Shown here piece by piece: positions 8,743 through 48,128 of a stretch of 64,000 bases of DNA. The stretch's first letter is position 1. Each line of letters opens with the position of its first letter. A program made the translations under genes and the position numbers. Source of the DNA: Cyclobacterium marinum DSM 745 (GTDB taxonomy: Bacteria > Bacteroidota > Bacteroidia > Cytophagales > Cyclobacteriaceae); contig NC_015914.1 in the NCBI RefSeq assembly GCF_000222485.1, positions 6,120,001 through 6,184,000 of the forward strand, given 5' to 3'. The notes beneath the pieces are model-generated. The model ran no database searches, was not told the DNA's origin, and saw nothing but the letters and a program-made list of their open reading frames with translations.

Positions 8743-9873
8743 TTAATATTCTGGTTTTTCCCCCTCTATAGGGAGAGTGAAAAAGAAAGTACTTCCATTT
8801 CCAGGTATTGAATTTGCACTGATGGTTCCGCCATGAATTTCAAGAATTCTCTTGCAAGAGGCAAGTCCTATACCTGTTCCGGGTACGCGGCCATGCGGGT
8901 TCAACCTTTTCATAAAACCAAAAATTTCGTCGGTTGATTTCTGTTTAAAACCTATTCCATTGTCATTGACAAAAACAGTGATTTTATCTCCTTTTTCTTC
9001 AAAATCAACAGAGATTACCGGATCTGCTTCAGAACGGTATTTTATAGCATTACTAAATAGATTTTGAAAAAGTCGAATCATCTGGATTTTATCAGCCACT
9101 ATTACTGGCAAAACTGGTATATTGAAGGTAGCATTGTTTTCTTTCGCCTGAACTTCAATCATTTCAAGGGCTAAACTACAGACCTCATTCAATGAAACCT
9201 CTTCAAATTCATTCTCGTTTCCATCAATTTTGGAATAATCGAGCAAATCTTTGATCATAAGTTTCATCCTTTGGGTATTTTCTAAAATAAGGGAGTAATA
9301 CATCTTACCGTCGGTATCAGGGGGCAGATGTCCTTCTTTTTCTAATAATCCCACCAAACTAGAAATCGTATTTAAGGGAGCTTGCAAATCATGCGAAGCA
9401 GTATAGGCGAAATGTTCCAGCCCTTCATTTACCTGTCTAAGCCTTTCGACAGTTTGTTCCGCTTGTTTTCTTGCCTTTATCAGCTCTACCTCGTATTGCT
9501 TTCTTTGGGTTATGTTCAATACTGAAAATCTAAAAAAAGGCGACGCATTGGAGCTTTTAAAAATTTGCATACCATTTAATAAGGTGGGCAATCGCCTTGA
9601 ATCTTTCCCCTTAAGTTCAATATTGATTTCAGAAATTTCTTGATGAATATGAAGCAGGGGCATTATATGTGTTTCGAAGTAAATTTTCTCTCCCATACCC
9701 AACAAATCCTGAAAAGACTTTTGAAGTACAATTTCATTTCTTTCATATCCCAGCCACTTTAGCAATGTACTATTTATGTTGACAATTTTTCCGTCCGCAC
9801 CAGTGGTCATATAACCAAAAGGGGCATTTTGGTAAAGGTCTTCAGAATCTTCTGTAAATCCTTGTTCTATCAA
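8743..9873 (-). CDS. PAS-domain sensor histidine kinase coupled to an RsbQ-like hydrolase
   Basis: A 376-residue cytoplasmic kinase without membrane helices. Residues about 12-125 form one PAS domain with its C-terminal cap (NAPFGYMTTGADGKIVNINSTLLKWLGY; FETHIMPLLHIHQEISEINIEL; SVLNITQRKQYE). This is the PAS subtype found next to RsbQ-like proteins. A coiled coil (about 126-150) leads to HisKA with the phospho-acceptor His161 (FAYTASHDLQAPLN). The ATPase domain follows, with N box (QNLFSNAIKYRS), G1 (DNGIGF) and G2 (GTGIGLASCKRIL). The start ATG overlaps the end of the hydrolase gene by 4 bases, giving tight translational coupling. No response regulator is adjacent, so the output partner is unknown. 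Confidence 0.92.
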   Translation of the reverse strand: MIEQGFTEDSEDLYQNAPFGYMTTGADGKIVNINSTLLKWLGYERNEIVLQKSFQDLLGMGEKIYFETHIMPLLHIHQEISEINIELKGKDSRRLPTLLNGMQIFKSSNASPFFRFSVLNITQRKQYEVELIKARKQAEQTVERLRQVNEGLEHFAYTASHDLQAPLNTISSLVGLLEKEGHLPPDTDGKMYYSLILENTQRMKLMIKDLLDYSKIDGNENEFEEVSLNEVCSLALEMIEVQAKENNATFNIPVLPVIVADKIQMIRLFQNLFSNAIKYRSEADPVISVDFEEKGDKITVFVNDNGIGFKQKSTDEIFGFMKRLNPHGRVPGTGIGLASCKRILEIHGGTISANSIPGNGSTFFFTLPIEGEKPEY

Positions 9874-10676
9874 TTTCTGTTGGCTAAATAAGATTCAATA
9901 CTTGAAACAACTTGATCAGGAGCAGTCAGGTGAGGACAATGCCCTGAAGAGTTCAATAGTACATATTTACTTTCTTTAATTTGTTGATTTACAAATTCCC
10001 CTACCCTAACTGGGGCAATAACATCGGGATGGCTTTGAAGAATTAAAGTGGGAATAGACACATTTTCTAAATCCGCTCTATTGTCTCCCATAAAAGTTAC
10101 CTTGGCAAAATGCTTGGCTATATTAGGATTCATCGAGCAGAAACTATTCTTTAATTCTTCGGCATATTCAGGCAACTCAGGATTGCCTATAATTATTGGC
10201 GTAATAAAACTAGACCAACCTAAATAATTACTATCCAAAGTTTCAATTAATTCATCAATATCCGCTTTGGTAAAACCTCCAAAATAATCATCGCCATTGG
10301 TGTAGCAGGGTGAGGGCCCTATCAAAACCAATTTATCAAAAAGATCAGGCCTTTCGGTAGCAGCCAGTATTCCGATAATACAATTTACAGAATGACCAAC
10401 AAATATCACCCTTGAAAGATTAAGTTCAACAATCATTTCAATCAGATCCTGAGCATACCCCGTAAGTGAACTGTATTTTTCAAAATCATAAGCGCTTTGA
10501 TCTGAATTACCAGAGCCTACAAGATCAAATAAAATAACCTGGTAATCCATCTCAAAAGCAGGGGTGATAAATCGCCACATATTCTGATCACAGCCATACC
10601 CATGGCCGAAGACCATAGGTTGCTTACCGTTACCAATTATTTTTACGTTGTTTTTTACTATTTTATTTATACTCAT
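9870..10676 (-). CDS. RsbQ-like alpha/beta hydrolase (signal-generating or -perceiving partner of the PAS kinase)
   Basis: A 268-residue cytoplasmic alpha/beta hydrolase closely resembling Bacillus RsbQ along its length: GHGYGCDQNMW, ILFDLVGSGNSDQSAYD, GYAQDL, FVGHSVNCIIG, GPSPCY, SFCSMNP, ILQSHPDVIAP and SGHCPHL. The catalytic triad is Ser96, Asp218 and His246, the same places as in RsbQ. In Bacillus, RsbQ supplies or senses a small hydrophobic ligand for the PAS domain of the phosphatase RsbP; plant D14/KAI2 receptors are relatives. Here the gene is first of a two-gene unit whose second member carries a PAS domain on a histidine kinase. The function is inferred from this pairing. Confidence 0.92.
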   Translation of the reverse strand: MSINKIVKNNVKIIGNGKQPMVFGHGYGCDQNMWRFITPAFEMDYQVILFDLVGSGNSDQSAYDFEKYSSLTGYAQDLIEMIVELNLSRVIFVGHSVNCIIGILAATERPDLFDKLVLIGPSPCYTNGDDYFGGFTKADIDELIETLDSNYLGWSSFITPIIIGNPELPEYAEELKNSFCSMNPNIAKHFAKVTFMGDNRADLENVSIPTLILQSHPDVIAPVRVGEFVNQQIKESKYVLLNSSGHCPHLTAPDQVVSSIESYLANRN

Positions 10677-11166: not shown

Positions 11167-13191
11167 TTATTTTTCAGGCACCCATAGTACTGCATCAGCT
11201 ACAACTGTACCATCGGCACCTTCTGTACTTACAGTAACAAAGGGATTAGTACCTACTTCCAAGGTATGAGTACCTACATTTACCCACTCCCCTCTTGTTT
11301 GGCCTTCAACTCTAATGTCCGATTCTTTTACAAGAATTTCATTTTCTGCTTTCCCGTCAGAAACAATAATTTTCGTCTGACTTGTTGCATCCTCTGTTCC
11401 TGAGAAATAGACATAAATGTCATACTTACCATTTTCTACCACTTTTGGACTAAAACGGACTGTACTAATGGAGTTGCCATTGCCTGCGTTCTTCAAAAGT
11501 GTAGGACCATATCCATGTCTATTTTGAATTTCCCAATCTCCAGTAACAACTACAACCTCATCATCGTTGTCTACTAGAATCTCAGCTGTACTTCCATCTG
11601 CCAAAGGGTTAGACTTAAGCTCTTCCTGTAATTTTTGGATGGACAAGTCCTGAACTGTTAGCCCTTCATCCAATGCCAGACTTGCCGCGACTGCAGCAGA
11701 CTGCCCCAATACCATAAACACCGGTTCCATTCGAATAGAACCATAGGCAATATGACTGGCAGAAAGGGCAACTGGTACAAGCAAGTTTTTTGCCTCATTG
11801 GCTTTAGGTATAATAGACCTGTAAGCAATTGGATATGGGCCAAAACCACCTATTTCCACATTGCCTTCATTTTTCACCATTTTTTTTCCATCCTTCTCCA
11901 CAACTACACGTTGGATATTATGGGAATCCATGGTATAAGCAGCCATCCCAACTCCATCTTCAACGACCTCTTCTCCCACACAATTGGCTTGAGTCATCAC
12001 ATATTCACCCACCATTCTTCTCACCTCGCGCACATAAAGTTGGGGAGACCAGTGATCCGTGTCAACATATTCGTCTTTTGGATAACCCCAATCCTTAATT
12101 AAATCTTGAAGCTCTTTGGGAACTCTTGGGTCTGTTTTGTAAAAATACAGCAGTGATTTAGTATACAAAGTATGGGCGTCAATAATTTCTTGCCTTTTCT
12201 CATAACTTCCTTCAGGATATTCGTGATTCATCCCTATCATATCAGTAGAAAAGCCTCCCCTATTATTAATATCTGTTTTATTATTGGGCATTCTACTCCA
12301 GATAAAATACTGGTTAATGGTTCTCTTATCCGGCTGAGCCTCAAAAAGCCTCACCAAAAGGTCGAACATCGAAGGATCGTAACCTTCGGGTTCAGTAATT
12401 TCTATTCTGTTATCCGGGTCATTGGTCAGGCAAATCCTATAATTATAGGCTTGAATCATATCATCTCCGGTACCATCCTCTGCAAGTTTACCGTCACTTA
12501 TGCCCCAAAGGAGTCCACTGGAAGGATCTCCCGGTACTTTATAGGGATCCACCCCATCCGGAAATTGATGTCCATTCATTAGCTGCACACCATTATAAGT
12601 CTCACCATAGACTTCATTGGCTTCCCTGCCAATGGCATAAGTTACTCCTGCCTTGGCCATTAGATCCCCTTCATAAGTGGCATCTATAAACATCTTGCCT
12701 GCTACCTCTCGTAAAGGCTCTGTAAGATTTGCTGCGTTTTCAATTGAAATTTTGGTAATTGCCCCATCCTTATTTTCAACATCTTGAATCCTAAAGCCAT
12801 ATTGAACGGCAATACCGGCACGGTCCAGATAATCTTGAAATGTGGCTTTGGCTACGCTTGGTTCAAAAATCCATTGCTCAAATTTCCCATAATGGTCCCC
12901 AAGTTTTCTATAAAAATCCCTGGAAAGTCCGGTTACTGCAAATTTATTTCCAATATCTGTATAACCTAAACCTCCGGTGGTCAGCCCACCCAAATGATGG
13001 CTGGGCTCAATTAACAAAACGGATTTCCCCATTGTTTTAGCAGTGTAAGCTGCAATGATTCCGGAAGAGGTTGCTCCATACACGACCACATCGTAAACTT
13101 TTTCCTCCGATTTTTCGGGAGGTGAACAAGAACTCATGTTGCTTGAAAAAACCAAGCATAGTAAACCTAAATAGTTAATATATTTTCTCAT
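11167..13191 (-). CDS. Exported FAD-dependent oxidoreductase with C-terminal golvesin/xanthan-lyase-type domain (lipoprotein)
   Basis: A 674-residue protein. The N-terminus has a lipoprotein signal (SSNMSSC) that should tether it to the membrane. The FAD-binding motif is VVVYGATSSGIIAAYTAKTMG followed by LLIEPSHHLGGLTTGGLG, the FAD_oxidored (PF12831-like) pattern. Shared family signatures are GDPSSGLLWG, VREVRRMVGEYVMT and MEPVFMVLGQSAAVAASLA. From about residue 550 a beta-rich module follows (WEIQNRHGYGPTLL to VVADAVLWVPEK), like the golvesin C-terminal or carbohydrate-contact domain seen on 'xanthan lyase' annotations. The ATG at 13191 is 9 bases after the sulfatase stop; a TTG at 13203 overlaps that stop and is less likely. 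It is the last gene before the terminator. Substrate unknown. Confidence 0.88.
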   Translation of the reverse strand: MRKYINYLGLLCLVFSSNMSSCSPPEKSEEKVYDVVVYGATSSGIIAAYTAKTMGKSVLLIEPSHHLGGLTTGGLGYTDIGNKFAVTGLSRDFYRKLGDHYGKFEQWIFEPSVAKATFQDYLDRAGIAVQYGFRIQDVENKDGAITKISIENAANLTEPLREVAGKMFIDATYEGDLMAKAGVTYAIGREANEVYGETYNGVQLMNGHQFPDGVDPYKVPGDPSSGLLWGISDGKLAEDGTGDDMIQAYNYRICLTNDPDNRIEITEPEGYDPSMFDLLVRLFEAQPDKRTINQYFIWSRMPNNKTDINNRGGFSTDMIGMNHEYPEGSYEKRQEIIDAHTLYTKSLLYFYKTDPRVPKELQDLIKDWGYPKDEYVDTDHWSPQLYVREVRRMVGEYVMTQANCVGEEVVEDGVGMAAYTMDSHNIQRVVVEKDGKKMVKNEGNVEIGGFGPYPIAYRSIIPKANEAKNLLVPVALSASHIAYGSIRMEPVFMVLGQSAAVAASLALDEGLTVQDLSIQKLQEELKSNPLADGSTAEILVDNDDEVVVVTGDWEIQNRHGYGPTLLKNAGNGNSISTVRFSPKVVENGKYDIYVYFSGTEDATSQTKIIVSDGKAENEILVKESDIRVEGQTRGEWVNVGTHTLEVGTNPFVTVSTEGADGTVVADAVLWVPEK

Positions 13192-13199
13192 TATTTTTA

Positions 13200-14978
13200 T
13201 CAATTGGTTTTTGTAAATACAATTAATCTCAAATCCATTACTTGGCTACCCGGTATATCGAGAGCCGTCAGGGATAAGGTGGCTTCACCTTTTTCTAGGT
13301 AAATTTCCCCTATTTGCATGGCTTTGAAATCTTTCACATAAGACTCCATTCTTTTAACTCGGTCATTCTCCATACCTTGTAAAGGTGGGTCATGCGCCAG
13401 TTCCACTTTTCCATCAACATAATTCTCTCCTAATTGAAGCCTAAAAGTGGAGCCTATATCTTCCTGTGGACAAGTATAATATAGTTCGACCTCATATTTC
13501 CCAGGCTCTATCACTTCTACGTTCCAAGTAATGCTGTCTTCCAAACTTTGCCAATTCTCAAAAAATGAGTCATTAGGAAAGCGGTTAGATCTCTGGACTC
13601 CTCCATGTGCATCTCCATCTCGGGCAGGCATTTGAGTGTACTTAGCCCCGGGTGCACCTATGGTAAATGAACGCGCTTTAAGGTCATTTTCTAATTCATT
13701 GGCCATTTCATTTTCCCAAGCATCTTTTGCTGAGCTAAGTTTGGCTGTTAATTCCGGCTTACTATCTTGTATCGGATATTGTTGATATGGATCCTTGTTC
13801 ATATCAAACAAGTTCCCTTCGTGATCTAGTAGAAAATCCTGGGTCCTTAAACTTGTTCGATTATTCCAATGGCGATAAATGATTCTATCCTCCCATGCCG
13901 CATTTTCATTGAATATTAATGGTTTTAAACTTTTCCCGTCAAACGACTTATCAGGATTGTAAGAAATCCCCAATAAATCCATCAAGGTTGGAAAAAGATC
14001 AATTGCGCCGGCAATTTCCTTTATAAGTTTTCCTTCAGGAATTGTTCCTTTCCATTGCATAAAAAAAGGGCTTCTTACTCCTCCTTCATCTGTAGAACCT
14101 TTTCTTCCTTTCATTCCTCCATTCCATCTAAAACTATTTGGACCATTGTCACTGAAATAAATTACAAGGGTGTTTTCCTCAAGCTTTAGCTTTTTTAACT
14201 GTTCCATCACCCTCCCCACATTCCAATCGATATTTTCACACATTGCCAAAGCTGCCTTTGTAAAATCCGGATCTTCTCCATTGACAAGGCTATCAAGCAT
14301 TTTGTTAGAAAAAGGATCATACCAACGGTCAGGAACTTGCATGGGTGAGTGAGGAGTATTAAGTGGCAAGTAAACCAAAAATGGTTTGTCTTTATTCTCT
14401 TCAATAAACCCTATAGCCTTGGAAGTAAGGTCATCTGCAAGGAACCCCTGCCCTTGCACGGGTTTTCCATTGTGTTCTAATGGAGGGCTAAAATAATTAC
14501 CCCAATGCCCGCTACAAAAGCCATAAAATTCATCAAAACCTCTCGCATTGGGATGATAAGGGTGTTGCATACCATTGTGCCATTTTCCAAAGGCACCTGT
14601 TACATACCCTTCCGATTGAAGAATTTCAGCAAAGGTTGTTTCATCAAGATCCAGCCTTTCTTGGCCTGCTGAAGTACCGCTTACTCCGCCACGCAAATGG
14701 TACCTGCCGGTTAGCATTTCTGCGCGAGTTGGAGAGCATACAGGTGAAACATAAAAACGATCAAAACTGATTCCTACTTCACCCAGCTTGTCTATATTTG
14801 GTGTTTGTAAATTAGGATTACCCGTAAAACTTAAATCTCCCCATCCTTGATCATCCGTAAGAATGATCAGTATGTTTGGCTTGACTATTCCCTTGTCTTC
14901 AGAATGGCATGCGTAAAAAGCACTCATACAACATAAAAACACAAAGATCTTCCCGGTAAATTTTACGGATAACCCCAT
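13200..14978 (-). CDS. Sulfatase (type I, formylglycine) with C-terminal beta-sandwich extension
   Basis: A 592-residue exported sulfatase. Metal-binding DDQ is in LIILTDDQGWGDL (about 36-49). The sulfatase signature CSPTRAEMLTGR contains Cys81, to be converted to formylglycine. Other active-site features are FGKWHNG and YFSDNGPN. Hydrophobic residues 8-24 form a signal peptide; FYAC at the end could be a lipobox but is weak. The catalytic part ends near 470. A further about 120 residues (SFFENWQSLEDSITW to DLRLIVFTKTN) look like a separate beta-sandwich, perhaps carbohydrate binding. It is followed by the FAD oxidoreductase at 9-base spacing, and a sulfatase-maturing enzyme must be elsewhere. 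Likely removes sulfate from a sulfated glycan. Confidence 0.92.
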   Translation of the reverse strand: MGLSVKFTGKIFVFLCCMSAFYACHSEDKGIVKPNILIILTDDQGWGDLSFTGNPNLQTPNIDKLGEVGISFDRFYVSPVCSPTRAEMLTGRYHLRGGVSGTSAGQERLDLDETTFAEILQSEGYVTGAFGKWHNGMQHPYHPNARGFDEFYGFCSGHWGNYFSPPLEHNGKPVQGQGFLADDLTSKAIGFIEENKDKPFLVYLPLNTPHSPMQVPDRWYDPFSNKMLDSLVNGEDPDFTKAALAMCENIDWNVGRVMEQLKKLKLEENTLVIYFSDNGPNSFRWNGGMKGRKGSTDEGGVRSPFFMQWKGTIPEGKLIKEIAGAIDLFPTLMDLLGISYNPDKSFDGKSLKPLIFNENAAWEDRIIYRHWNNRTSLRTQDFLLDHEGNLFDMNKDPYQQYPIQDSKPELTAKLSSAKDAWENEMANELENDLKARSFTIGAPGAKYTQMPARDGDAHGGVQRSNRFPNDSFFENWQSLEDSITWNVEVIEPGKYEVELYYTCPQEDIGSTFRLQLGENYVDGKVELAHDPPLQGMENDRVKRMESYVKDFKAMQIGEIYLEKGEATLSLTALDIPGSQVMDLRLIVFTKTN

Positions 14979-15100
14979 ATTTATAACAATTAAAATTTAA
15001 TTACACTGTAGGTGGTAAACCAAAACCTACTTAAAAACTACTTGTCATAGCTTTAAATTTTTCACTTAGATTGAATTAATTTTCTATGTTAGTTCAAATC

Positions 15101-16783
15101 TTATTGAATTTTATCGGCAATGGTCAAAACCTGATCATCTTCCAATAATTTTGTTTTCAATTCAGAATAAGGAAGCTCTTGAACACTTATTTCTTTATCT
15201 ATAGACATTACAGCTGCTGTGGCAGCAGATTGACCCAATATCATAAATACAGGTTCCATTCGAATGGATCCAAATGCTATATGACTTGCGGAGACAGCTA
15301 CAGGTACTACTAGGTTTTGAATTTCATCTTCTTTAGGCACTAACGATCCATAAGCAATTTCGTAGGGCTGCTTAAGGTGTACACCGATATCACCTTCATT
15401 TTGAACATGACCATTTTCATCAACATATCGTTGGATATTGTGCGAATCGATACTGTATGATCCCATACCTACTGATTCAGGAGTAGGTCTTTTCTGCATC
15501 AATTCGTTTTCAGTCATTACATACTTTCCAACCATTCTTCGAGCTTCTCTTACATAAATTTGATGAGGCCAGTTGCCATTGTCTGTGAATTCGTCTTTAG
15601 CTAAACCCCATTTTTTAAATTCATCTTGAGTTGCTTTTGGAACTCTTGGATCATTGGCTACATAATATAACAATCCTTTTTGGTAATCTTCATGTTCTTT
15701 TATGATCTCTCTCCTGCGTTCGTAACTGGCCTCAGGATAATCGTAATTCATCCCGATATTATCAGAACTAAAGGGCCCGTGATTATTGGTATCTGTTTTC
15801 TTATTTGGGATCATGTCAAATTTACCAAACCACTCATCCCATCCGGCATCGAAAATCCGTCCAAGCAACTCATATTCGCTTGGATCATAATTGTCCGGCT
15901 TTGGGAATGGAACTTGGTTGTCAGGATGTACAGACATACAAGTCCTAAAGCAGTAAGCCTGAACTTTATTATCTCCTTCACCTTTCACACCGGGATCTTC
16001 ACCACTAATTCTTGGCAGTAAGCCAGATGAAGGATCCCCTGGAACCACGTAAGGATCGATGGGTTGACCCAAAACTTGAAAGTGATGTCGGTGATGATAA
16101 ACCCCTGTTTGCACTCCATTCCATTCTTCACCATATACATCGCTGGCTTCTCTTCCCACATGGTAACTTACACCTGCAGCGGCCATTAAATCTCCTTCGT
16201 AGGTTGCATCAATAAACATTTTTCCTTTAAACTCTTTCCCGCTTAAAGTACGGATGGCTGTAATTCTGTCATTCTCTACCGTTACGCCTGACTCCCTGTC
16301 CAGCCATTCATCTCGAAGGACTTCTATACCTAATTCCTCAACCCATTCATCGTAGACTTCTTCTGCCACATGCGGCTCAAAAATCCACATGGTTCTGAAT
16401 TTACCATCGATGGCCGGGGTTCCTTGACCTTTGTTTCCGAAGTCACTTTGTGCCTCCCATTGCCATGCATCATCCTCAGCATACTTATCATATACGCGTT
16501 GGTAAAATTCACGCGACAAACCACCAATCACTTCTTTTTTTCCGGTATCTGTCCAACCCAATCCGCCGGAAGTTAAGCCTCCTAAATGCTTGTCAGGGGA
16601 AACCATAATTACTGATTTCCCCATTTTTTTTGCTTGAATGGCTGCAGTTACCGCACCGGAAGTCCCTCCATAGACGATTACATCCGTAATTTCTTCCTGT
16701 TCAGCAGCCGGGCCGCAAGCCATAAACACCCAAACAAGTGAGAGGCTTAAAAAGACAGACTTGATAATACCTGTTTTTCTCAT
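15101..16783 (-). CDS. Exported FAD-dependent oxidoreductase (lipoprotein), second paralogue
   Basis: A 560-residue protein with a lipoprotein signal (VWVFMAC). FAD motif VIVYGGTSGAVTAAIQAKKMG, then IMVSPDKHLGGLTSGGLGWTDTG. Family signatures are FIDATYEGDLMAAAGVSYHVGRE, GDPSSGLLP, VREARRMVGKYVMTE, GSYSIDSHNIQRYVD and RMEPVFMILGQSAATAA. Unlike the paralogue at 11167 it stops after the oxidoreductase part, with no beta-rich tail. It lies 122 bases upstream of the sulfatase and 338 bases downstream of the third paralogue. The family is common in sulfatase-rich loci of Bacteroidota and Planctomycetota; the reaction is not established, and oxidation of a sugar hydroxyl is a guess. Confidence 0.88.
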   Translation of the reverse strand: MRKTGIIKSVFLSLSLVWVFMACGPAAEQEEITDVIVYGGTSGAVTAAIQAKKMGKSVIMVSPDKHLGGLTSGGLGWTDTGKKEVIGGLSREFYQRVYDKYAEDDAWQWEAQSDFGNKGQGTPAIDGKFRTMWIFEPHVAEEVYDEWVEELGIEVLRDEWLDRESGVTVENDRITAIRTLSGKEFKGKMFIDATYEGDLMAAAGVSYHVGREASDVYGEEWNGVQTGVYHHRHHFQVLGQPIDPYVVPGDPSSGLLPRISGEDPGVKGEGDNKVQAYCFRTCMSVHPDNQVPFPKPDNYDPSEYELLGRIFDAGWDEWFGKFDMIPNKKTDTNNHGPFSSDNIGMNYDYPEASYERRREIIKEHEDYQKGLLYYVANDPRVPKATQDEFKKWGLAKDEFTDNGNWPHQIYVREARRMVGKYVMTENELMQKRPTPESVGMGSYSIDSHNIQRYVDENGHVQNEGDIGVHLKQPYEIAYGSLVPKEDEIQNLVVPVAVSASHIAFGSIRMEPVFMILGQSAATAAVMSIDKEISVQELPYSELKTKLLEDDQVLTIADKIQ

Positions 16784-17121
16784 AATTTTAATTAGTTTAT
16801 TGTTTTATATATAAATTCATTTGCTCCAATTCTCAATCTTCTGAGGCTCAGGCTTCGAAATGGACTGGTTAATGCTAACATTATTAATCAATATTAATAG
16901 CTTTATAAGCTTCCTTTTAACAGGATACCAACCAACACCTATCATCTACAAAAAACTGATAATAGCTCCTTCAGCTGAAGTACAGGATGCTATTTCCAAT
17001 AATGTTTTGAAGCGTATATTGGGTTGATTTGATATTCCTTGCTCTTCAGATTTTTTTAATTCGCCTTCTATAAACTTCTTTCTAAATGATTCCTATCAAG
17101 AATCGATGAGAGGTCATGAAA
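16784..17121. other. 338-base intergenic region inside the polysaccharide locus
   Basis: AT-rich spacer between two FAD-oxidoreductase genes. It carries one perfect 12-base palindrome, CTTCAGCTGAAG, at 16969-16980, which could be an operator or chance. No open frame with coding character and no terminator-like hairpin, so transcription may run through it. Confidence 0.45.
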
Positions 17122-18834
17122 TTATTTTTTATAATTCAGGATTTGATTGTCTCCAAGAAGCGTCTCCCTCAATAAAGAATAATCCACATCCTGCACCGCA
17201 ACATCCTGGTCTATGGCTAAGAACGCTGCCGTAGCTGCAGATTGACCCAAAACCATAAAGACCGGTTCCATTCTAGCAGATCCAAATGCTACATGACTGG
17301 CACTTATACAAACCGGTACGAAAAGATTTTCCTTCTCCCCTTTTTTAGGTACAATTGACCGGTATGGAATGGGATAAGCTGTTAATCCTCTGGCTTCAAA
17401 ATTACCTTCATTCTGAACATAGCCATTGTGATCTACATAGCGTTGGACCATGTGAGAATCCATCCCATATGAACCCATACCTACGCCATCTTCTACCTGG
17501 GGGACCAAACCTTCACAATCTGCTTGAGTTATTACATAGTCACTCACCATTCTCCTGGCTTCTCTCACATACAGTTGTGGGGTCCATCCGTTTCTATCTT
17601 TGAACTCATCTTTTGTCATTCCCCATTTAGATACCACCTCTCTAACTTCCTTTGGAATTCTAGGATGATATGCCAAAGACCACATCAAACCCTGCTGGTA
17701 TTCCAGCTGCCTCTGGGCAAAAGCTTCTCTTTCTGCATAACTTGCTTCCGGATAATCGAAATTCTGACCAATAAAATCTGTTGAAAAACCTTTCTGATTG
17801 TTTGTATCTGTTTTTTTATTGGGCATTGGGGTATTGATCCAAGGAACCAAAGGATCACCATAATGGTACATCTCCTCAATTGGCCCATTAGCTGCCTCAT
17901 AATTTCTAAATAACAACTCAAACTCTAGTTCCTTATAGTTGTCTGGCTTTTTAAATGGTATCCTATTCTCAGGATGATTGGTTAAGGTCATCCGGTAGCA
18001 ATAGGCTTGAATACCTTTGTCAGCTGTCCCGTCGATTCCCGGCCCTCCTTCAATTATAAAAGGCAATAATCCACTGGAAGGATCACCCTTAACAATGTAT
18101 GGGTCAACTCCGGGTACAAAATTGTGGTGAATGGCATTTCTGGACACATTCCCTTTTAAAGTAAGGTTATATTTATTGGCCTGAACACCATTTAATGTTT
18201 CTCCATATTGACTATTCGCCTCTCTTCCAGTTGTATAACTCACTTCTGAAGCAGCCATTAAATCTCCTTCATAGGTAGCATCCATAAACATTTTACCGGA
18301 ATAAGTCTCTCCACTTTCCATGGTTATAGAAATAATTCTATTGTTGTGAGACCTTACACCACTTGGCCTATTCAGTCGTTTTCCTATCACCAGGGTAACT
18401 TCTTCTGCTGCCAACATTTCATGGTAAACTTTCATGGCTACGGAAGGTTCAAAAGTCCACATGGCATCTTCACCATCATTAGATCTTGTTTGGTTTGGTC
18501 TGGATAAATACTCCAATCGATCTTCATATTTCCATGTTTCGGGATCCTTGTAGTATTCCATTATATTTTGATAAAACTCTCTGGAAATACCCCCGATAAC
18601 ATCTTTGTTACCTATATCAGTTGCTCCTAAGCCACCTGTTGTCAAACCGCCTAAATGGTTTGAGGGCTCGATTAATATTACTGATTTACCCATTCGAGAC
18701 ATTTGAATGGCCGCTGCTACTCCTCCGGACGTACCCCCGTAAATAACCAGATCATAAGTAGGACTTTGGGCTTTCACCGTAAAAGTATTAGTCCCGAATA
18801 AAAGAAGTAACAAAACAGTAAATAGGTGTTTCAT
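17122..18834 (-). CDS. Exported FAD-dependent oxidoreductase, third paralogue
   Basis: A 570-residue protein with a Sec signal peptide ending near VKAQ (residues 1-23), so probably soluble in the periplasm. The FAD motif is LVIYGGTSGGVAAAIQMSRMG, then ILIEPSNHLGGLTTGGLGATD. Shared signatures are MDATYEGDLMAASEVSYTTGRE, GDPSSGLLPF, VREARRMVSDYVITQ, GSYGMDSHMVQRYVD and RMEPVFMVLGQSAATAAFLA. No C-terminal extra domain. It follows the upstream sulfatase by 85 bases. The differing anchors (this one free, the other two lipoproteins) suggest the three act at different sites or on different fragments, which is inference. Confidence 0.88.
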   Translation of the reverse strand: MKHLFTVLLLLLFGTNTFTVKAQSPTYDLVIYGGTSGGVAAAIQMSRMGKSVILIEPSNHLGGLTTGGLGATDIGNKDVIGGISREFYQNIMEYYKDPETWKYEDRLEYLSRPNQTRSNDGEDAMWTFEPSVAMKVYHEMLAAEEVTLVIGKRLNRPSGVRSHNNRIISITMESGETYSGKMFMDATYEGDLMAASEVSYTTGREANSQYGETLNGVQANKYNLTLKGNVSRNAIHHNFVPGVDPYIVKGDPSSGLLPFIIEGGPGIDGTADKGIQAYCYRMTLTNHPENRIPFKKPDNYKELEFELLFRNYEAANGPIEEMYHYGDPLVPWINTPMPNKKTDTNNQKGFSTDFIGQNFDYPEASYAEREAFAQRQLEYQQGLMWSLAYHPRIPKEVREVVSKWGMTKDEFKDRNGWTPQLYVREARRMVSDYVITQADCEGLVPQVEDGVGMGSYGMDSHMVQRYVDHNGYVQNEGNFEARGLTAYPIPYRSIVPKKGEKENLFVPVCISASHVAFGSARMEPVFMVLGQSAATAAFLAIDQDVAVQDVDYSLLRETLLGDNQILNYKK

Positions 18835-18919
18835 AATTTAAAATTTTTAATTGGTCATCAGAAAATGGTAATATTTTTATCTAAATTCTGAAATTTAAAA
18901 TCACTGGAATTCGAGCCTA

Positions 18920-20461
18920 TCACATGGCTGCTGATAAATGTTCATTCAACTGATTCAATAGTTTATCAGCCAATTCGGAGTTTTCTTCATATAAATTATT
19001 GGATTCCCCCGGGTCTTCTTCCAAATTATAAAGCTCTCCGGGAGATACAAAAGGATATTTCCCCAGCCCTATTACCTTCCATTTTCCCTGTCTGAAGGCG
19101 TAGGACTCCCCACTTCCTCTAACCACCACAGACTCCCTCTTTTCCATACCTTCACTCTCCCCATAAAAAGCAGGCAATAAATTATAACCATCCCTCGAAG
19201 CTCCTTCAGGTATCTTTTCACCCACTAAAGCGGCCAAAGAGGGTAAAACATCATTCAAGGCGATAAGTTGGTCGCTAACAAGCCCCTCAGGAAAATTACC
19301 TTTCCAGCTGGCAATTAAGGGAGTTCGAACACCTCCCTCATTAACCGACCATTTGGTTCCTTTATAAGGGTAATTCGGTTGATGAGCATCAGGATTTATC
19401 TCTTTATTCACATTGGAAGGACTATTTGAATGGGATTCCCCCTCTTGTCCAGCATGGGTAGTAATAAACTGTGAACCATTGTCACTTGCAAAAATGATGA
19501 GGGTATTCTCTTTCATGCCTAGCCTCTCTAGCTCTTGCAATAATTCCCCTATATAATAATCAAGTTCGAATACATAATCCCCATAGGGCCCTGCCTCTGT
19601 TTTACCCATAAACTCATCAGAAACAGCCAAAGGAATATGGGGTACATAGGGGGAGTAATAAAGAAAGAATGGTTTGTTTGCAGGTTCGCTTTTAAATTTC
19701 TGAAGGAAATTAATACTTTCCTTAGTAATAAGAGGTAGAAATCCTTCTAAAGGAATTTTCATAAGCTCTTTTTCCGGTGAGGTTGCCTCAGTAGTATACA
19801 AATCATGCTGAAGAGCACCCACAATTTGCTTGTCCTCAAAAAGCCAACATTCACTGGCACAACTGAAACCTAACCAGTGTTGGAAACCTCGATCCATGGG
19901 TCCATCAGTTAATGGTTGGTTGAAATCTATATTTGCACCATTCTGCTCATGGTGAAATTCCCCATAACCTACTGGAACTTCACCATCAATGGTAGGAAAA
20001 GTAGTACCCAAATGCCATTTTCCAAAGCCTACCGTCTGGTACCCTGCGTTTGCAAGCATTTGAGGCAATGTTAAAGTCTCCTCACTGATCATTGAGGGTT
20101 CATAATTTCTCATCACCCCACTTTTTTTCCAACTTCTCCAAGGATACTCACCAGTCATTAGAGCATACCTACTAGGGGAGCAGACAGAAACAGGGCAATA
20201 GGCTTCCGTGAACCGGACTCCTTCTTTTGCCAATTGATTCAAGTTGGGTGTAAGGGTTTTGGATTTTGAGTTGTATACTTCCAAATCACCATATCCCAAG
20301 TCGTCTGCAAAAATAAACAAGATATTGGGTAAATCTTTGCCAACTATTTCTTTATCCTGGGATTTGCATGCAGCCAATAGAAAAGTAATCACCAAAACCA
20401 AGCATCCTAATAACCTTGGTATTTTAAAAAATAATATTTGTTTCATTAATGTTTTCTTCAT
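18920..20461 (-). CDS. Sulfatase (type I), lipoprotein
   Basis: A 513-residue sulfatase with a lipoprotein signal (ITFLLAAC, Cys32). Metal-binding residues are in FIFADDLGYGDL (about 49-60). The sulfatase motif CSPSRYALMTGEYPWR has Cys94 for formylglycine. Further family segments are GFGKWHLGT, YYSPYVPHIP, IIFASDNGSQF and KWSVNEGGVRTPLIASWKG. The C-terminal subdomain ends near LNEHLSAAM without an added module, in contrast to the other sulfatase in this locus. It lies 436 bases downstream of SusD, so it may be read from its own promoter as well as from the locus promoter. Substrate class likely a sulfated polysaccharide; position specificity cannot be read from the sequence. Confidence 0.93.
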   Translation of the reverse strand: MKKTLMKQILFFKIPRLLGCLVLVITFLLAACKSQDKEIVGKDLPNILFIFADDLGYGDLEVYNSKSKTLTPNLNQLAKEGVRFTEAYCPVSVCSPSRYALMTGEYPWRSWKKSGVMRNYEPSMISEETLTLPQMLANAGYQTVGFGKWHLGTTFPTIDGEVPVGYGEFHHEQNGANIDFNQPLTDGPMDRGFQHWLGFSCASECWLFEDKQIVGALQHDLYTTEATSPEKELMKIPLEGFLPLITKESINFLQKFKSEPANKPFFLYYSPYVPHIPLAVSDEFMGKTEAGPYGDYVFELDYYIGELLQELERLGMKENTLIIFASDNGSQFITTHAGQEGESHSNSPSNVNKEINPDAHQPNYPYKGTKWSVNEGGVRTPLIASWKGNFPEGLVSDQLIALNDVLPSLAALVGEKIPEGASRDGYNLLPAFYGESEGMEKRESVVVRGSGESYAFRQGKWKVIGLGKYPFVSPGELYNLEEDPGESNNLYEENSELADKLLNQLNEHLSAAM

Positions 20462-20897
20462 TCGTTTAGCGTCTTCTCTTTCGTTTTTAATAATTGAGGA
20501 TTTTGCCCTGCCACTGTTATGGACTATTTATTTTCACTCACAAATAAAATTTGTGAGAAAATTATTTTCTAGGTCACTATTTTGTCTCTATTCGGACCAT
20601 CCAATGGTTCATTAAAATAACAAGTTTTTTGCAATTATAAATTAGGTTTAAATACTCTAATACTTTATAAATTCTTAACATAAATTTTGATTAGCTATGC
20701 TAATATTATGAATCAGGAGGTTTACCATCTTTCCCAAGAACTCAAAAATGTCAATATTTTCATAGCCATGCTGAAAAGAGAAACCACTAGTCAAATTTCT
20801 GTTCAAAAGAGAATTTCCTGCTCCAGGCAACTTGACCTGAAACAGGAAACTCAATTGTATTTTAAGTCATTTTTTTAATAGAAATAAGCTTTTAACA
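20462..20897. other. 436-base intergenic region between SusD and the first sulfatase
   Basis: AT-rich region inside the polysaccharide locus. A short frame at 20687-20878 with a TTG start has no protein-like features. I see no terminator-like hairpin on the minus strand. The length suggests a separate promoter for the sulfatase/oxidoreductase genes. Confidence 0.45.
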
Positions 20898-22577
20898 TCA
20901 ATAACCAGGATTCTGAGTCAAAGCGGTATTTGTCTCTAATTCTATTCTAGGAATTGGCCACAAATAATCTCTTTCCGGATTGAATGCTCTTGTTTCTACT
21001 ACCACCATTTCACTTGCATTGCTGATATTGTCATAGGATGGAGTGCCCATTTCATCTATCATAGGTGCAGAATTCAACCATCCACCTTCACCATACCTGT
21101 TTACTCTTCCTCTTACAGGACCCGGAATCACATCTTCTGCTATCCTCCATCTTCGGATGTCAAAATACCTGAAACCTTCCATTCCCAATTCATGCCTTCT
21201 TTCCTTTCTAACAATATTTCTTAACTCTCCCTGGGTTTTCCCGGCCTCTAGCAATGGCATTTGTACCGATTCCCTGGAGCGAATGGCATTGATTGCTTCA
21301 TATACAGATTCATCTAACTGATTTAATTCCACCTTTGCTTCCACATAGTTCAGCAAGACCTCACCTAGTCTGAAAATGGTTAGGTTTTGATCTGAGGATC
21401 CCACATCCGTAGGATAATTGGCCACATCGACATGCTTCCTATAAAGATAGCCTGTAAAGGATGCATAAGCATGTTGAGCTTCTATGTTAGGAACCCTTAT
21501 CATTTCATCTCCTCTAAATTCCCAAGTCATAGTACTGTCTCTATGCGTCTCATAGATCCAATTTACCAAACGGGATCCAGGTAAGACCAAGGTATGACCT
21601 AACCTAGGGTCTCTGTTCTCAAATGGACTATTGGGCTTGTAAAGAGGTGACTCATCAATCGGTAAACCATCAATACAGTGGTAAGTATCTACCATATCTT
21701 GAGGTGGTTTTTTATTTGAATGCCCTAAAGCCATTCTGGACCAAAAATTCCTTGGCATATTGTGAGTAGCTACTCCACGAAGATATTGAATCCTCATGAT
21801 CACCTCTGGGGAATTATCTCCAGCAAAGGTGAACATCCCCTGATAATCAGGATCAATTTGATAAGCTCCGGAGTCTATAAGCTCCTTGGCTGCAGAGGCC
21901 GACACTTCCCACCTTTCGTTCCATAATGCCACTCTAGATATCAATGCCAAAACGACCCCTTTGGTCACTCTTCCTTTATCGGAGGCATTCATGGGTAAAT
22001 AATTTTTTACCTCATCTAATTCTGAAAGCACAAAATCGATCACAGCTTCTTTTGAAGCCCTAGGGGTTTGTGAATCCTCCAATGTAAGCGTGCTTGTTAT
22101 CAAGGGTACATCTCCATATAGCTCCGCCAAATAGGAATAATAGAATGCCCTTAAAAATCTCGCTTCACCAACCAACCTATCATAGTCATCGGGATCCATT
22201 TTCTGCCTAAGCTCAATACTTTTAGAAGTAATATAATTCACTCTATTTATCCCTCTGTAGAAATGAGACCAAAAACCATTGGTAAAGCCATTATCAGCAT
22301 TTTGTTCTCCTCTTCCTAAGGCTTGAAGGGTACTCCCATTTCGATCCCATCCATCGTCTGAGGCAAAGTCGAAAGATAAAAACCAAGCGATTCCTGCAGG
22401 AAAATACCACAGTCTATTGTACACCCCAGTGACGGCCATTTCCAACTCAGTTTCATTGGCAAAGTAGGTTTCGCTTGAAGGAGAGTCCAAAGGTAACCGC
22501 TCCAAATATTCATCATCACATGCTGTGGTCAAAATCAAAGCAGGTATTAATATTGTGTATATTATTAATTTTTTCAT
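20898..22577 (-). CDS. RagB/SusD-family outer membrane glycan-binding lipoprotein
   Basis: A 559-residue SusD homologue, the surface lid of the SusC channel that binds glycan fragments. It has a lipoprotein signal (ALILTTAC) and the usual opening 'YLERLPLDSPSSETYFANETELE'-like segment. TPR-like helices are in the middle (FLRAFYYSYLAELYGDVPLI), and the C-terminal family segment is RRHELGMEGFRYFDIRRW, ending DYLWPIPRIELETN and NPGY. I chose the ATG at 22577 (MKKLIIYT) because the signal peptide begins there. It starts 13 bases after the SusC stop; a longer frame to 22604 would overlap SusC and has no family support. Paired with the SusC directly upstream. Confidence 0.95.
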   Translation of the reverse strand: MKKLIIYTILIPALILTTACDDEYLERLPLDSPSSETYFANETELEMAVTGVYNRLWYFPAGIAWFLSFDFASDDGWDRNGSTLQALGRGEQNADNGFTNGFWSHFYRGINRVNYITSKSIELRQKMDPDDYDRLVGEARFLRAFYYSYLAELYGDVPLITSTLTLEDSQTPRASKEAVIDFVLSELDEVKNYLPMNASDKGRVTKGVVLALISRVALWNERWEVSASAAKELIDSGAYQIDPDYQGMFTFAGDNSPEVIMRIQYLRGVATHNMPRNFWSRMALGHSNKKPPQDMVDTYHCIDGLPIDESPLYKPNSPFENRDPRLGHTLVLPGSRLVNWIYETHRDSTMTWEFRGDEMIRVPNIEAQHAYASFTGYLYRKHVDVANYPTDVGSSDQNLTIFRLGEVLLNYVEAKVELNQLDESVYEAINAIRSRESVQMPLLEAGKTQGELRNIVRKERRHELGMEGFRYFDIRRWRIAEDVIPGPVRGRVNRYGEGGWLNSAPMIDEMGTPSYDNISNASEMVVVETRAFNPERDYLWPIPRIELETNTALTQNPGY

Positions 22578-22590
22578 CAGTTTCAAGTGT

Positions 22591-25500
22591 TTAGAAATTA
22601 ACATTCAAACCCATCGTATAGGTAGCCATCTGGGGATACCAACCTCCATTACTAACCGGAGCTTCCGGATCATAACCTTCATAAAAATCATGTACCGTAA
22701 ACACATTCCTACCACTCAAATACATCCTTAGTCCTCTAATATTAAGCTTGGACAAGACTGTTTCTGAAAAAGTATAACCTACTTGAATATTCTGCCCCCT
22801 TAAATAAGCAGCGTTTCTCATCCAAAAACTTGAATTCTGCTCATTATTGGTTTGATTCCAGGCTAGCCTAGGATAAGCAGCATCAGTATTGGCGGGAGTC
22901 CAACGGTCCTTATGCTGTTCTTGTACTGTACCTCCTAGGTAGAATGGCATGATCCCTTGACCATACATGTAGCCATCAGCTTTTCCAACCCCTTGTAGAA
23001 ATACCGATAGGTCAAACCCTTTATAGTCTGCACTAACTCGAAGTCCAAAAGTATGTCTTGGTATGGGGCTGCCTATCACAGCAAGGTCACGGTCATTGAT
23101 CATACCGTCTTCATCAATGTCTTTGTATTTGATATCACCGGGAGCTATATTTCCAAATTGGTCCGCATGATTGTCTACTTCTTCTTGTGTTTGAAATAAG
23201 CCCTGATCAACATATCCAAAGAATGAACCAATAGAATAGCCCTCCCTGTTCACTGTCAAACCTGTATTCTCTATTCCTCTCATGTCTATGATTTCATTTC
23301 GGACATCGGAATAGTTTACCATGATGCTATAATTCAATTCCCCTACTTTGTTTCTGTAGTTTACCATTAAATCATAGCCCTTATTTAAGACCTCGCCTGC
23401 ATTTTGGAAAGGTGCACTTAGCCCAAGGGTCTGTGGGATATTTAAAGCCAAAAGAATATCCTTGGTTCTTCTGATATAATAATCTGCAGAAACATCTAGT
23501 TTACCCCAGAGATTAAAATCCAAGCCTATATCAGTGGTCTCTGTTGTTTCCCACTTTATGGAGGAATTGGCCATACTATTCAAGGCAGCCCCAGGAGAGT
23601 TTTCTCCATTAAAGGTATAATCCTGACTACCACCACCTAAGGACATAAAGGCAGCGAAAGGGTAAAGTCCAATATTTTGATTTCCTAATTGACCCCATGA
23701 AGCACGTAATTTTAATTGGTCAATTATGCCAGAATAAGGCTCCATAAAGCTTTCTTCAGACACTCTCCATCCAGCAGAAAATGAAGGAAAAACACCCGAC
23801 CTGTTCCCTTCAGCAAACCTAGAGGAGGCATCCCTCCGTACATTCCCTTCCAAAAGGTATCTTTCATCAAAATTATAGGTAACCCTACCGAAAACAGATT
23901 GTAAAGCCCAGTGAGAAGCGGCACCTCCTGTTCGCTCGTTTGCCCTGTTTCCTGCATTGATCTGTTCATATTGAGGCAAGGGAAACACTTCTCTATAAGC
24001 TGAAATCCATGCATTGGTTTGATCTTCCTGTTGATAGCCAGCCGTCACACCAATGGTGTGAACCTGATTAAAAGTTTTGTCATAAGTCACTATTGCTCGG
24101 AGGTTATTGTACCACTCTCTAGTATAGCTTTCTGACAATGAATTTCTTTGTGGCACAAAGTGCGTAGGAGTAACTCCGTCTCTGGCATAAGTTTGCGTGA
24201 TATTGGAGAAAACTTTGCTATGTGGGTTCCAGAACTTTGGGGCGTACATTACTTCAGCATTTAGCCCTTCGGAAATTTTGTAATTCAGTCGAAAGTTCAA
24301 GATGGCATCAAGGCTCTCATTCGTGTTTAGCCCTCCATCTTTAGCCCTTGCTAATGGGTGGTCTCCATTCCAGCCTTCACCATAGCGCCCGTTTGAGAGT
24401 ATTCCCACTTCATTGGATGGAATTCTTCTCATCCAGTGAAAAACATAACTTGTGCCACTGGAAGGTTGTTTTTGGAAAGCCCTTCGCAAAAAGATATCCG
24501 TAGAAAGTGTCAATCTTTCTGAAACGTTTATGTCTGAATTGAGCCTTAAATTAAAACGATTAAAGCTAGTATTTGGAATAATTCCTTCCTGATCCAGATA
24601 ACTTACAGAAGCAAATAACTTTGACTTCTCACTCCCTGCATTGATGCTTAAATTGTGATTTTGCATGAATGCAACATTGCTCATAGTAATCTCTTGCCAA
24701 TCGGTATCCGGATATTGGTCTGATGGCATCCCGGCTTTATAAGCTTCAATAAACTCATCTGTATATTGAGGATCATTACCTACATTGGTAAAAGCTTCAT
24801 TCGCCATTTCCATGTGATCAATTGCTCCAACAATTTCCGGAAGTTGAGTAGGTACCTGAAAACCGGCATACATATTATAATTTACCCTTACCCCTTCAAT
24901 GCCTCTTTTTGTAGTAATCAACACCACACCATTGGCTGCTCTCGCCCCATAAATGGCTGCAGAAGAAGCGTCCTTTAATATTGAAATACTTTCAATCTCA
25001 TTCGGGTCAACATTATTAAGGTTTGTTTCTATTCCATCCACCATCACTAGGGGATTAGAATCTCCAAGGGTCCCTACCCCACGAATCCGAATAGAACCTC
25101 CATCACTCCCGGGTTGCCCACTTCGCTGAGTTACTGTGACTCCCGGAGCGATGCCTTGCAAGGCCATAGACGTTTGCCCCACAGGTTGATTCACTATCTC
25201 TTTGGAGGTTATTGAGCTCACAGCCCCGGTCAAGTTTACTTTCTTTTGTGTGCCATAGCCTACCACAACTACCTCATCCAAAGAAGACAAGTCTTCAGTC
25301 ATGGTTACTTCAATTTCACTTCGGTTACCCACTGAAACAACTTGTTGTTGGTAACCAATAAATGAAAAGATCAACACTGCATTTTCCGGGACTTCAAATG
25401 AAAAATTACCATCAATATCGGTGGCTGTACCTATATTGGTTCCCTGAACCAAGACAGTAGCACCTGGAATCCCCTGTCCATTGCTATCCACAACTCTCCC

Positions 25501-30049: not shown

Positions 30050-30257
30050 AAGAATATATTTAATTTATGAATTTGATTTTAAAATTAAAATTTCGATTTT
30101 GTAAAAATTTAAAGTTTGATGAAGGTAAAAGTTTAATTATATCGGATACTTTATTTTTTTAAAAATTAGAGTTCCACTATTAATTTAGCAATAAATGATT
30201 TTATTTGGTTAATATTTCGAGATTTAGCGCCCATCTCATGAAAGTTTAATTCAGAGC

Positions 30258-33200: not shown

Positions 33201-34385
33201 AACCGATATATTTTAAAAGAAATATTTTCTTTGAACGACATCAAAGTCGATGAAGCAGAAAATGGTTTTGAGGCCTTAAAACAGATAGAAAGTAATGATT
33301 ATGATGTGGTTTTAATGGACTTGAACATGCCCTATATGGATGGGATAGAAACCACAAAAAAAATCAGAGAAAACTTTACCAATAAAAAATCTCAGGTGCC
33401 AATTTTACTTCTGCATAGTTCTGCAGAAGATGATTATATCCTTAAACAGTGCAAGGAACTTTCCATTAATCGCAGGATTTCTAAGCCAATAAAAAACAAA
33501 GAATTGTTTGAGGCTTTAAGCAAACTACAGCCTCCTAAGCAGTCTACTTCTAGAGGAACAGTAGAGCAAGCTGACACTGGGAAAAAGGAAACAGTTGGTG
33601 CACGTGTACTAATAGCTGAAGACAATTCTATAAATATGTTTTTGGCTAAAACAATTGTCTTAAAAGTTTCCCCTAAAGTCGAGATATTTGAAGCAACTAA
33701 TGGTCTTGATGCTTATGAAATGGCTACAGAGTTTTTGCCGGATATAATTTTAATGGACATACAAATGCCTATTATGAGTGGTCATGAGGCCACCAAAAAA
33801 CTAAAGGAAAATCCTAAAACCAAAGATATTCCAATCATTGCTATCACAGCGGGAAACATAAAAGGAGAAAAAGAAAAATGCATGGCCTCCGGTATGTCTG
33901 ATTTTGTGCCAAAACCAATTGTAGAGAAAAACATAATATATATTTTTGACAGATGGTTAAATACAAAAGAAACAGAAAAAACTTCCGAAGAGGAAGAATT
34001 AAATGAAATGCCCGCAGAAAAAGATGGGGCTATCACTGAACAAAAGGACCATTTTGATGTAGACAAAGTCAAGGAATTTTTGGGTGATGAACCCGAAATC
34101 ATTAAAGAGGTCCTAAAGTTAACCATCCATGAATTGGAACAATCCAAAACCGTATTGGCTAATCATTATACCAATAAAGATTTAGGTGGTTTAAGCTCCG
34201 AAGGGCATAAATTGAAAGGTTCTGCATTAACAGCAGGCCTGGGTGAGGTTTATAAAACAGCTCTTGCATTGGAAGAAATGAAAACCTTGGATTTACCACT
34301 TGCCAAAAAGTTAATTGACAGCTTTGATGCTGAATATAATCTAGTAGTAGATTTAATCAATGATTATATTGCTCGGGGTAATTGA
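30258..34385 (+). CDS. Large cytoplasmic hybrid histidine kinase (GAF-PAS3-GAF-HisKA-HATPase-REC-REC-HPt)
   Basis: A 1,375-residue phosphorelay protein with no signal peptide or membrane helix. It has a GAF-like N-terminus (about 25-170) and three PAS domains (about 172-285, 288-400, 405-525; [26 protein letters not shown] is typical). A second GAF (about 545-700) follows, then HisKA with His738 ([19 protein letters not shown]) and HATPase ([18 protein letters not shown]). Receiver 1 has Asp1021 ([13 protein letters not shown]), receiver 2 has Asp1167 ([13 protein letters not shown]), and the HPt has His1317 (GHKLKGSA). All four phosphorylatable residues are intact, so a full internal relay is possible. 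The target is unknown; it opens the exopolysaccharide region, and a LytTR regulator is encoded convergently. Confidence 0.95.
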
Positions 34386-47728: not shown

Positions 47729-48128
47729 TTATTGAATCGATTGCAAATTTCCCTGTCCTCCTTAATATTGAATTTATTCGGGCTTCAAGCTCTTTAGGGT
47801 TAAAAGGTTTAACCATAAAATCATCTGCGCCCATGTTCAATATATCAATTTTCTTTTCAGAGGAGTCTGTAGCAGAAAGAACGATTAGAGGAATGGAAGA
47901 GAAAAATCCACTTGAACGAACCATTTCAACAAATTCCGCTCCACTAATTTCCGGCATGTTTAAATCACAAATAATTATATCAGGTAAATCACCCTCTTGC
48001 ATACTTGCTATGGCATCTGCAGGTTTGTTGAATACCTTAACATCAAATTTACTTTTAAAATAATGCTGTATGATTAGAAGAACAGAGGGTTCGTCATCTA
48101 TACCAAAAATCTTATACTTATTTTTCAT
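47721..48128 (-). CDS. Stand-alone response regulator (receiver only), coupled to the sugar transferase fusion
   Basis: A 135-residue single receiver domain. Acidic residues are in IFGIDDEPSVL, the phospho-acceptor Asp in DIIICDLNMPEISG, the switch Ser/Thr in LIVLSATDSSE and Lys in DFMVKPFNPKEL. No output domain. Its stop overlaps the start of the receiver/sugar-transferase fusion by 8 bases on the same strand. A signalling input into the first step of polysaccharide synthesis is likely. The partner kinase could be the hybrid kinase at 30258-34385 or one elsewhere. Confidence 0.93.
   Translation of the reverse strand: MKNKYKIFGIDDEPSVLLIIQHYFKSKFDVKVFNKPADAIASMQEGDLPDIIICDLNMPEISGAEFVEMVRSSGFFSSIPLIVLSATDSSEKKIDILNMGADDFMVKPFNPKELEARINSILRRTGKFAIDSINE

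Follow-up and report, generated by a model that had tools for sequence, protein, structure and literature searches.

Does a small alpha/beta hydrolase whose gene runs into that of a histidine kinase act as the sensing half of this kinase, or is it a metabolic enzyme that overlaps the kinase gene by chance? The question is raised by two minus-strand genes in a stretch of 64,000 nucleotides (nt) from Cyclobacterium marinum DSM 745 (NC_015914.1, positions 6,120,001 to 6,184,000; the window hereafter). A reading made from the letters alone, here called the sequence-only reading, had described them as an RsbQ-like hydrolase translationally coupled to a histidine kinase whose PAS domain is of the RsbP subtype. 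It had also stated that hydrolase-PAS modules with varied outputs were known. This is correct: in 2011 Nadezhdin et al. (PMC3183031) reported 45 such pairs, whose outputs are phosphatases, histidine kinases or cyclases. The histidine-kinase output itself, which occurs there in Gram-negative bacteria, has thus been described. This module work is cited in a 2025 eLife study (PMC12143880). A search for Bacteroidota names in the main text of the 2011 paper found none, the species list of its Figure 2 lying outside that search.

We conclude, with a probability of about 0.8, that the two genes encode a bipartite sensor of the RsbQ-PAS type whose output is a histidine kinase. That the window pair belongs to the sensor class published in 2011 (PMC3183031) is well supported.

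An RsbQ-type hydrolase gene overlaps a PAS histidine kinase gene

The hydrolase matches Abhydrolase_1 and Abhydrolase_6 above the Pfam cut-offs. Its top solved relative in a PDB sequence search is B. subtilis RsbQ (1wom, E 2.8e-84), followed by 3qvm and then by the plant HTL/KAI2/D14 receptors (HTL1 E 2.6e-64; KAI2 at best 4.7e-63), which bears out the kinship with strigolactone and karrikin receptors proposed from the sequence. By sequence KAI2 and D14 belong to the same hydrolase family and have the same triad. The plant receptors work with F-box and SMXL proteins and, unlike the window hydrolase, are not known to have a PAS partner. The catalytic residues and the strings GPSPCY and SGHCPHL named in the sequence-only reading are exact in the window sequence (Table 1), and the Ser-Asp-His triad is intact in all aligned hydrolases, i.e. 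the 131 of 146 rows used in the tree after duplicates, pieces below 220 amino acids (aa) and one contig-end row had been set aside.

The PAS_9, HisKA and HATPase_c domains of the kinase all exceed the Pfam cut-offs, in agreement with the kinase output read earlier, and the Pfam scan finds no fused receiver. None of the kinase motifs is broken, and an alignment of 40 kinase rows (the window and 39 picked among the 120 matches listed) shows no variation at H161, N275 and G332/G334/G336. The kinase is probably cytoplasmic, since it has no strongly hydrophobic 19-residue stretch (top 19-residue mean 1.28).

The hydrolase stop overlaps the kinase start by four bases, as had been noted, and from this overlap we infer translational coupling of the two genes. 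No start codon precedes the TTG in the kinase frame, and position 1 is nearly invariant across the 40 aligned rows, in which the starts of the homologues are likewise predicted. Of 98 distinct pairs with a linked PAS, 30 have a possible start codon at -4; across all 98, the conserved proline codon of the PAS lies a median of 47 nt from the stop of the hydrolase. The 494 bases upstream of the pair contain no Bacteroidota-type promoter (TAnnTTTG), and sigma-70-like sites upstream do not stand out from shuffles.

Table 1. Coordinates of the hydrolase-kinase pair and of the alternative partner genes (ORF, open reading frame; L numbers denote loci)
Feature	Position	Strand	Basis
PAS sensor histidine kinase, 376 aa, TTG start	8743..9873	-	ORF list, Pfam
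HATPase_c domain, kinase residues 261-370	8764..9093	-	Pfam
HisKA dimerisation domain, kinase residues 153-218	9220..9417	-	Pfam; phospho-acceptor H161 codon 9391-9393
Post-PAS linker: NITQR (DIT-like), then YEVELIKARKQAEQ	9418..9516	-	RsbP alignment, motif scan
RsbP-type PAS domain (PAS_9), kinase residues 19-123	9505..9819	-	Pfam, RsbP alignment
F-alpha segment K63..P72 (KIYFETHIMP)	9658..9687	-	Region aligned with RsbP F55/Y59
RsbQ-type alpha/beta hydrolase, 268 aa, ATG start	9870..10676	-	ORF list, Pfam, PDB sequence match
TTGA, the 4 bases shared by the end of the hydrolase and the start of the kinase	9870..9873	-	ORF coordinates, sequence
Catalytic His246 codon (SGHCPHL, from residue 244)	9939..9941	-	Exact; triad alignment
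Catalytic Asp218 codon	10023..10025	-	Exact; triad alignment
GPSPCY segment, residues 120-125	10302..10319	-	Exact; GPSPCY in RsbQ too
Catalytic Ser96 codon (VGHSV)	10389..10391	-	Exact; invariant in 131/131 hydrolases
Partner ORFs of about 150 aa	L061:6839-7300; L044:6793-7257; L064:6803-7294; L084:6841-7284		Downstream of RsbQ-type hydrolase

Hydrolase and PAS genes occur together in related genomes

The sequence-only reading had tied its proposal to co-occurrence of the two genes in related genomes, and this is what we find. The hydrolase is present at E <= 1e-40 in 11 of 59 related genomes, and a PAS match at E <= 1.2e-23 adjoins it in the same 11; four further genomes have weak PAS matches only (8e-10 to 1e-12). 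When a scan of genome contigs was cut to the best 80 of 222 loci encoding a relative of the hydrolase, 76 neighbourhoods had a PAS-containing ORF directly downstream on the same strand, starting no more than 300 nt from the end of the hydrolase.

Within the genus the pair occurs in seven of 12 genomes, the window's included, and the other five have neither gene, so that the pair is dispensable. In these five only one flank of the site was found. A sample of 395 genomes from the phylum Bacteroidota has the hydrolase at E <= 1e-50 in 22 genomes. Of 23 sampled loci besides that of the window, 19 show an adjoining PAS, three do not (L169, L176 and L178) and one ends too early. All 12 loci examined in close relatives retain the pair, and two of them the window's flanking genes on both sides. 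As the pair is kept while the flanking genes differ, and both genes are present jointly, the hydrolase and kinase genes seem to be passed on, acquired or lost together. No hydrolase-PAS fusion was seen among the matches listed or sampled, the open frames at hydrolase matches reaching at most 360 aa.

A few frames are interrupted, in the partner gene of L085 (after 6783) and of genome G007, contig C18 (59772-60144; L227, L235), and in the hydrolase of L013 (397-1200), which is broken in two frames and counts twice in a set of 77 hydrolases for 76 loci. These interruptions reflect either draft-assembly errors or decay.

The PAS domain resembles that of RsbP

The window PAS and the PAS domain of B. 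subtilis RsbP are 32% identical across 98 aligned aa, with a pairwise E of 2e-15. By sequence it is thus of the RsbP subtype, as the earlier reading had it. The RsbP query agrees with the nine residue numbers and with the length of 403 printed in PMC3183031, and it matches a database entry named RsbP of B. subtilis at 99% over 403 aa.

RsbP depends on F55 and Y59 both to signal and to interact with RsbQ (PMC3183031), and the F-alpha segment of the window PAS has Y65 and H69 at these positions. Along the alignment RsbP C10/L13/L48/Q53/F55/C56/Y59/P62/E72/P86 correspond to F/M/L/K/Y/F/H/P/E/P in the window. The nine class-distinguishing residues are mostly kept: L48, E72 and P86 are identical, positions 13 (M) and 56 (F) are hydrophobic, and positions 53 (K), 55 (Y) and 59 (H) fall into the basic, aromatic and H/Y classes of the figure legend in PMC3183031, as we assign the symbols of that legend to PAS positions. 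Over 87 aligned PAS rows (the window and 86 PAS domains linked to a hydrolase, a few sites being present twice) position 55 is aromatic in all 87 and position 59 is H in 71, with P62 in 82, E72 in 83 and P86 in 77.

A seven-position signature devised here gives the window PAS a score of 6 and the other own-genome rows aligned over at least 60 residues a score of 1 each, a control that comprises only three of 38 rows, one being the window's and the other two apparently one protein. The genome, a single 6.22-Mb contig, has PAS_9 matches in 48 places, and the nearest other PAS to that of the window matches at E 0.016.

Hydrolase distances track the PAS domain

We compared pairwise distances in 98 distinct PAS pairs, 73 of which have a kinase-core match. 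Over these 73 pairs the Spearman correlation is 0.674 between hydrolase and PAS, 0.332 between hydrolase and kinase core and 0.266 between PAS and core. The difference between the hydrolase-PAS and the hydrolase-core correlation has a bootstrap 5-95% range of 0.23-0.45. Because hydrolase distances track the PAS far more closely than the core, the data fit a hydrolase that would touch the PAS domain and not the catalytic core.

The linker behind the PAS begins with YExELxxA in 69 of 100 distinct partners, comprising kinases and the Actinoplanes phosphatase L066 alike, as expected if the linker belongs to the module. In the own-genome control the motif occurs in three of 53 ORF pieces of PAS loci, spurious frames included; one of these is the window kinase and two are apparently one protein. 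By analogy the linker may run as a coiled coil into HisKA.

Ten partners chosen to span the outputs were scanned, and nine are kinase-like and one is a SpoIIE-type phosphatase. The kinase-like partners include one of the HWE type; L028 stops after HisKA with no ATPase domain, and in L014 and L048 the ATPase domain is found but no match to HisKA.

The window pair shares with RsbQ-RsbP, of the sigma-B energy-stress branch of B. subtilis, a hydrolase directly upstream of a protein with an N-terminal RsbP-type PAS, a similar linker start, the triad and the F-alpha pattern. It differs in output, which is a PPM phosphatase in RsbP and HisKA with HATPase_c in the window. Gene order, N-terminal PAS and kinase output are shared with the RsbQ-PAS kinase modules of Gram-negative bacteria described in PMC3183031, and a histidine kinase is one of the three module outputs given there, next to PPM phosphatase and GGDEF.

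A small protein replaces the PAS partner in Hymenobacteraceae

In four of the 80 loci (L044, L061, L064 and L084; Rufibacter, Pontibacter twice and Sabulibacter) a protein of about 150 aa takes the place of the PAS partner. As in the window, the partner follows directly downstream of an RsbQ-type hydrolase. Unlike the window kinase, it lacks a PAS, nor was any catalytic output domain found in it, and the arrangement does not occur in the window. The small partner has no Pfam match at E <= 1 (four tested), no NCBIfam match (one tested) and no credible relative in the PDB. In the literature, judged by titles and the starts of abstracts, we found no published report of an RsbQ hydrolase with such a small partner.

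With the L061 hydrolase as query, matches at E <= 1e-60 occur in 99 of 120 genomes of the family, which going by the named loci is the Hymenobacteraceae. The small partner adjoins 28 of the 30 best loci (L126-L155), a biased set in which four repeat the sites of L044, L061, L064 and L084. A further 40 loci, hand-picked down the matches listed, divide into 12 with the small partner, 13 with a PAS (L275 weakly) and 15 with neither. In L262, L264, L265 and L268 the gene after the RsbQ-like copy encodes no PAS but, judged by eye, an apparent membrane protease of the CPBP type.

The 32 alternative-partner rows comprise 28 distinct ones, which need two changes on the tree of 131 hydrolases. Twenty-seven form one starred clade within PAS-linked rows. 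The remaining one, L154, groups next to that clade with L024, a row from Adhaeribacter that has a PAS. The small partner may have a single origin. We considered partner-specific hydrolase residues (e.g. N150, P184) as an interface and rejected them, as PAS-keeping clades show clade-specific changes too. The number of such changes, with those in residues 145-196 in brackets, is 12 (8) in the alternative-partner clade, 16 (7) in the window clade, 33 (4) in a Microvirga clade and 3 (0) in a Flavobacteriia-rich clade.

The small partner is conserved at 65% mean column identity over 27 rows. Its profile matches 16 of 30 loci found with the SpoIIAA-like family PF11964 (E 4e-29 to 6e-6), 15 of which are over the PF11964 cut-off, and gives no match to the 13 strongest PF11964 loci; a direct profile comparison likewise gives nothing. 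It is perhaps a divergent SpoIIAA-like protein, linked through intermediate sequences only. Relatives of the domain also stand at the C-terminus of two proteins from another family than Hymenobacteraceae, L238:4744-7665 (973 aa, a histidine kinase by NCBIfam) and L237:9238-10770 (510 aa, a histidine kinase by eye). The one in L237 sits about 2.7 kb beyond an RsbQ-PAS-kinase pair.

Genomic surroundings and response regulators

The window kinase is unlinked to a regulator. A linked response regulator was rejected: the receiver matches closest to the pair begin at 30228, so that about 19 kb of the window next to it are free of receiver domains, and almost none is found beside relatives with short kinases of the window type. 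Among 25 such rows, which include several sites fetched twice, only L010/L186 (one site, match in a 1366-aa ORF) and L183 (86-aa ORF) are positive. In 67 other loci a receiver match lies inside the partner region in 36, apparent hybrids, and a small receiver ORF is nearby in nine; two loci belong to both groups. The distant matches in the window are 30258-34385 (a 1375-aa ORF with two PAS_9 matches as well), 34562-35263 (233 aa), 47721-48128 (135 aa) and a marginal one at 46523-47728.

The positions 11167-22604 hold a run of ORFs, several of which resemble FAD-dependent oxidoreductases by eye, and a sulfatase. The 11167-13203 product has five to six related copies in each of the five same-genus genomes without the pair. 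Among the ORFs listed near the pair no sigma-B partner-switching genes were recognised by eye. We also rejected the pair as a defence system; the PADLOC scan gives no match for the hydrolase and one weak match in the ATPase region of the kinase.

Proposed mechanism and alternative explanations

In a bipartite sensor of this kind the hydrolase would bind a small hydrophobic molecule in its Ser-His-Asp pocket, and probably act on it too, and would then contact the F-alpha face and the linker of the kinase PAS. This contact may alter the coiled coil and so set the autophosphorylation of the kinase, from which the phosphoryl group would pass to a response regulator encoded elsewhere. Observed here are the gene arrangement, the intact active sites, the class residues, the co-inheritance and the hydrolase-PAS co-divergence. 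The need for the triad and for F55/Y59 and a direct contact between hydrolase and PAS would carry over from B. subtilis, where direct RsbQ-PAS contact and its functional need have been described (PMC3183031) and where an AlphaFold2 model places RsbQ between the PAS and the linker of RsbP (PMC12143880). The sign of regulation, the linker mechanism, the ligand and the target we infer.

Several observations weigh against the bipartite sensor. The pair is missing from five of 12 genomes of the genus, three of 23 hydrolase loci in the phylum sample have no PAS neighbour, and about 19 kb of the window next to the pair hold no receiver domain that could point to an output. The hydrolase-PAS and hydrolase-core correlations share a phylogenetic background, and the kinase cores compared come from different families, which lowers the core correlation. 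Compared with the modules in PMC3183031 the window PAS deviates at two points. It has F at the C10 position, which is C in 65 of the 87 PAS rows, and it ends in the DIT-like NITQR (9502-9516), whereas none of the RsbP-PAS sequences of the 2011 study has a DIT motif (PMC3183031). A DIT-like motif closes 47 of 88 aligned PAS rows (85 distinct) in our set. Either the pattern used here is looser or the wider class, Bacteroidota-rich in our sample, does have the motif. The absence of DIT was an observation of the 2011 paper and not used there as a class definition (PMC3183031), and we judge that it does not define the wider class.

That the hydrolase is an ordinary metabolic esterase overlapping the kinase gene by chance is very improbable. 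In its favour are NCBIfam matches of the hydrolase to metabolic esterases such as BioH, each far under its cut-off (25 of 32 matches listed), and the 15 of 40 sampled Hymenobacteraceae copies with neither partner adjoining. The pairing in 76 of 80 neighbourhoods, the joint presence or absence of both genes in relatives and the co-divergence with the PAS rather than with the kinase core argue against it.

Two further explanations are finer versions of the bipartite-sensor reading. In Model 1 of PMC3183031 the hydrolase converts a metabolite and loads the product into the PAS pocket, the PAS being the real sensor. We regard this product hand-off as plausible, if a little short of an even chance. 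It is consistent with the triad intact in 131 of 131 hydrolases and with the Gly120 of RsbQ, which is tied to normal serine-hydrolase geometry (PMC3548789) and kept in the window as the first residue of GPSPCY. The linkage of the Hymenobacteraceae partner via intermediates to SpoIIAA-like sequences points the same way, as solved SpoIIAA-like members have been compared with proteins that carry small nonpolar molecules (PMC2954212); the direct profile comparison of this partner with strong SpoIIAA-like members, however, lends no support. Also against Model 1 is F66, which in the window PAS occupies the position of the haem-binding His of some PAS domains, so that it has no such haem site.

In Model 2, the receptor model as in D14/KAI2, the pocket ligand would change the grip of the hydrolase on the PAS and catalysis would serve as reset only; the signal could be external, e.g. 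a butenolide-like molecule. We consider it a serious candidate, again somewhat below even odds. In its favour are the plant HTL/KAI2/D14 receptors, which rank directly after RsbQ and 3qvm among the solved matches, and the co-divergence of hydrolase and PAS. It is weakened by the residue at 120, where the window has the Gly of RsbQ and not the Ser119 of KAI2 (PMC3548789), and by the relatives in many unrelated phyla, which we take to favour a common internal metabolite over a plant signal.

Implications

The exchange in Hymenobacteraceae is a lead outside the window and separate from our verdict on the window pair. It raises the idea, which we hold to be unlikely, that hydrolases of the RsbQ type generally serve to load a small nonpolar signal onto receivers that can be exchanged, i.e. 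the PAS of a kinase with no linked regulator in the window and a stand-alone SpoIIAA/CRAL-TRIO-like lipid-binding protein in Hymenobacteraceae. If true, the same metabolite would be read by two unrelated folds, and product hand-off would be favoured over pure conformational sensing. The partner exchange provides a way to tell the two published models apart, and the small, probably soluble two-gene kinase version of the window gives a simple autophosphorylation read-out for finding the ligand.
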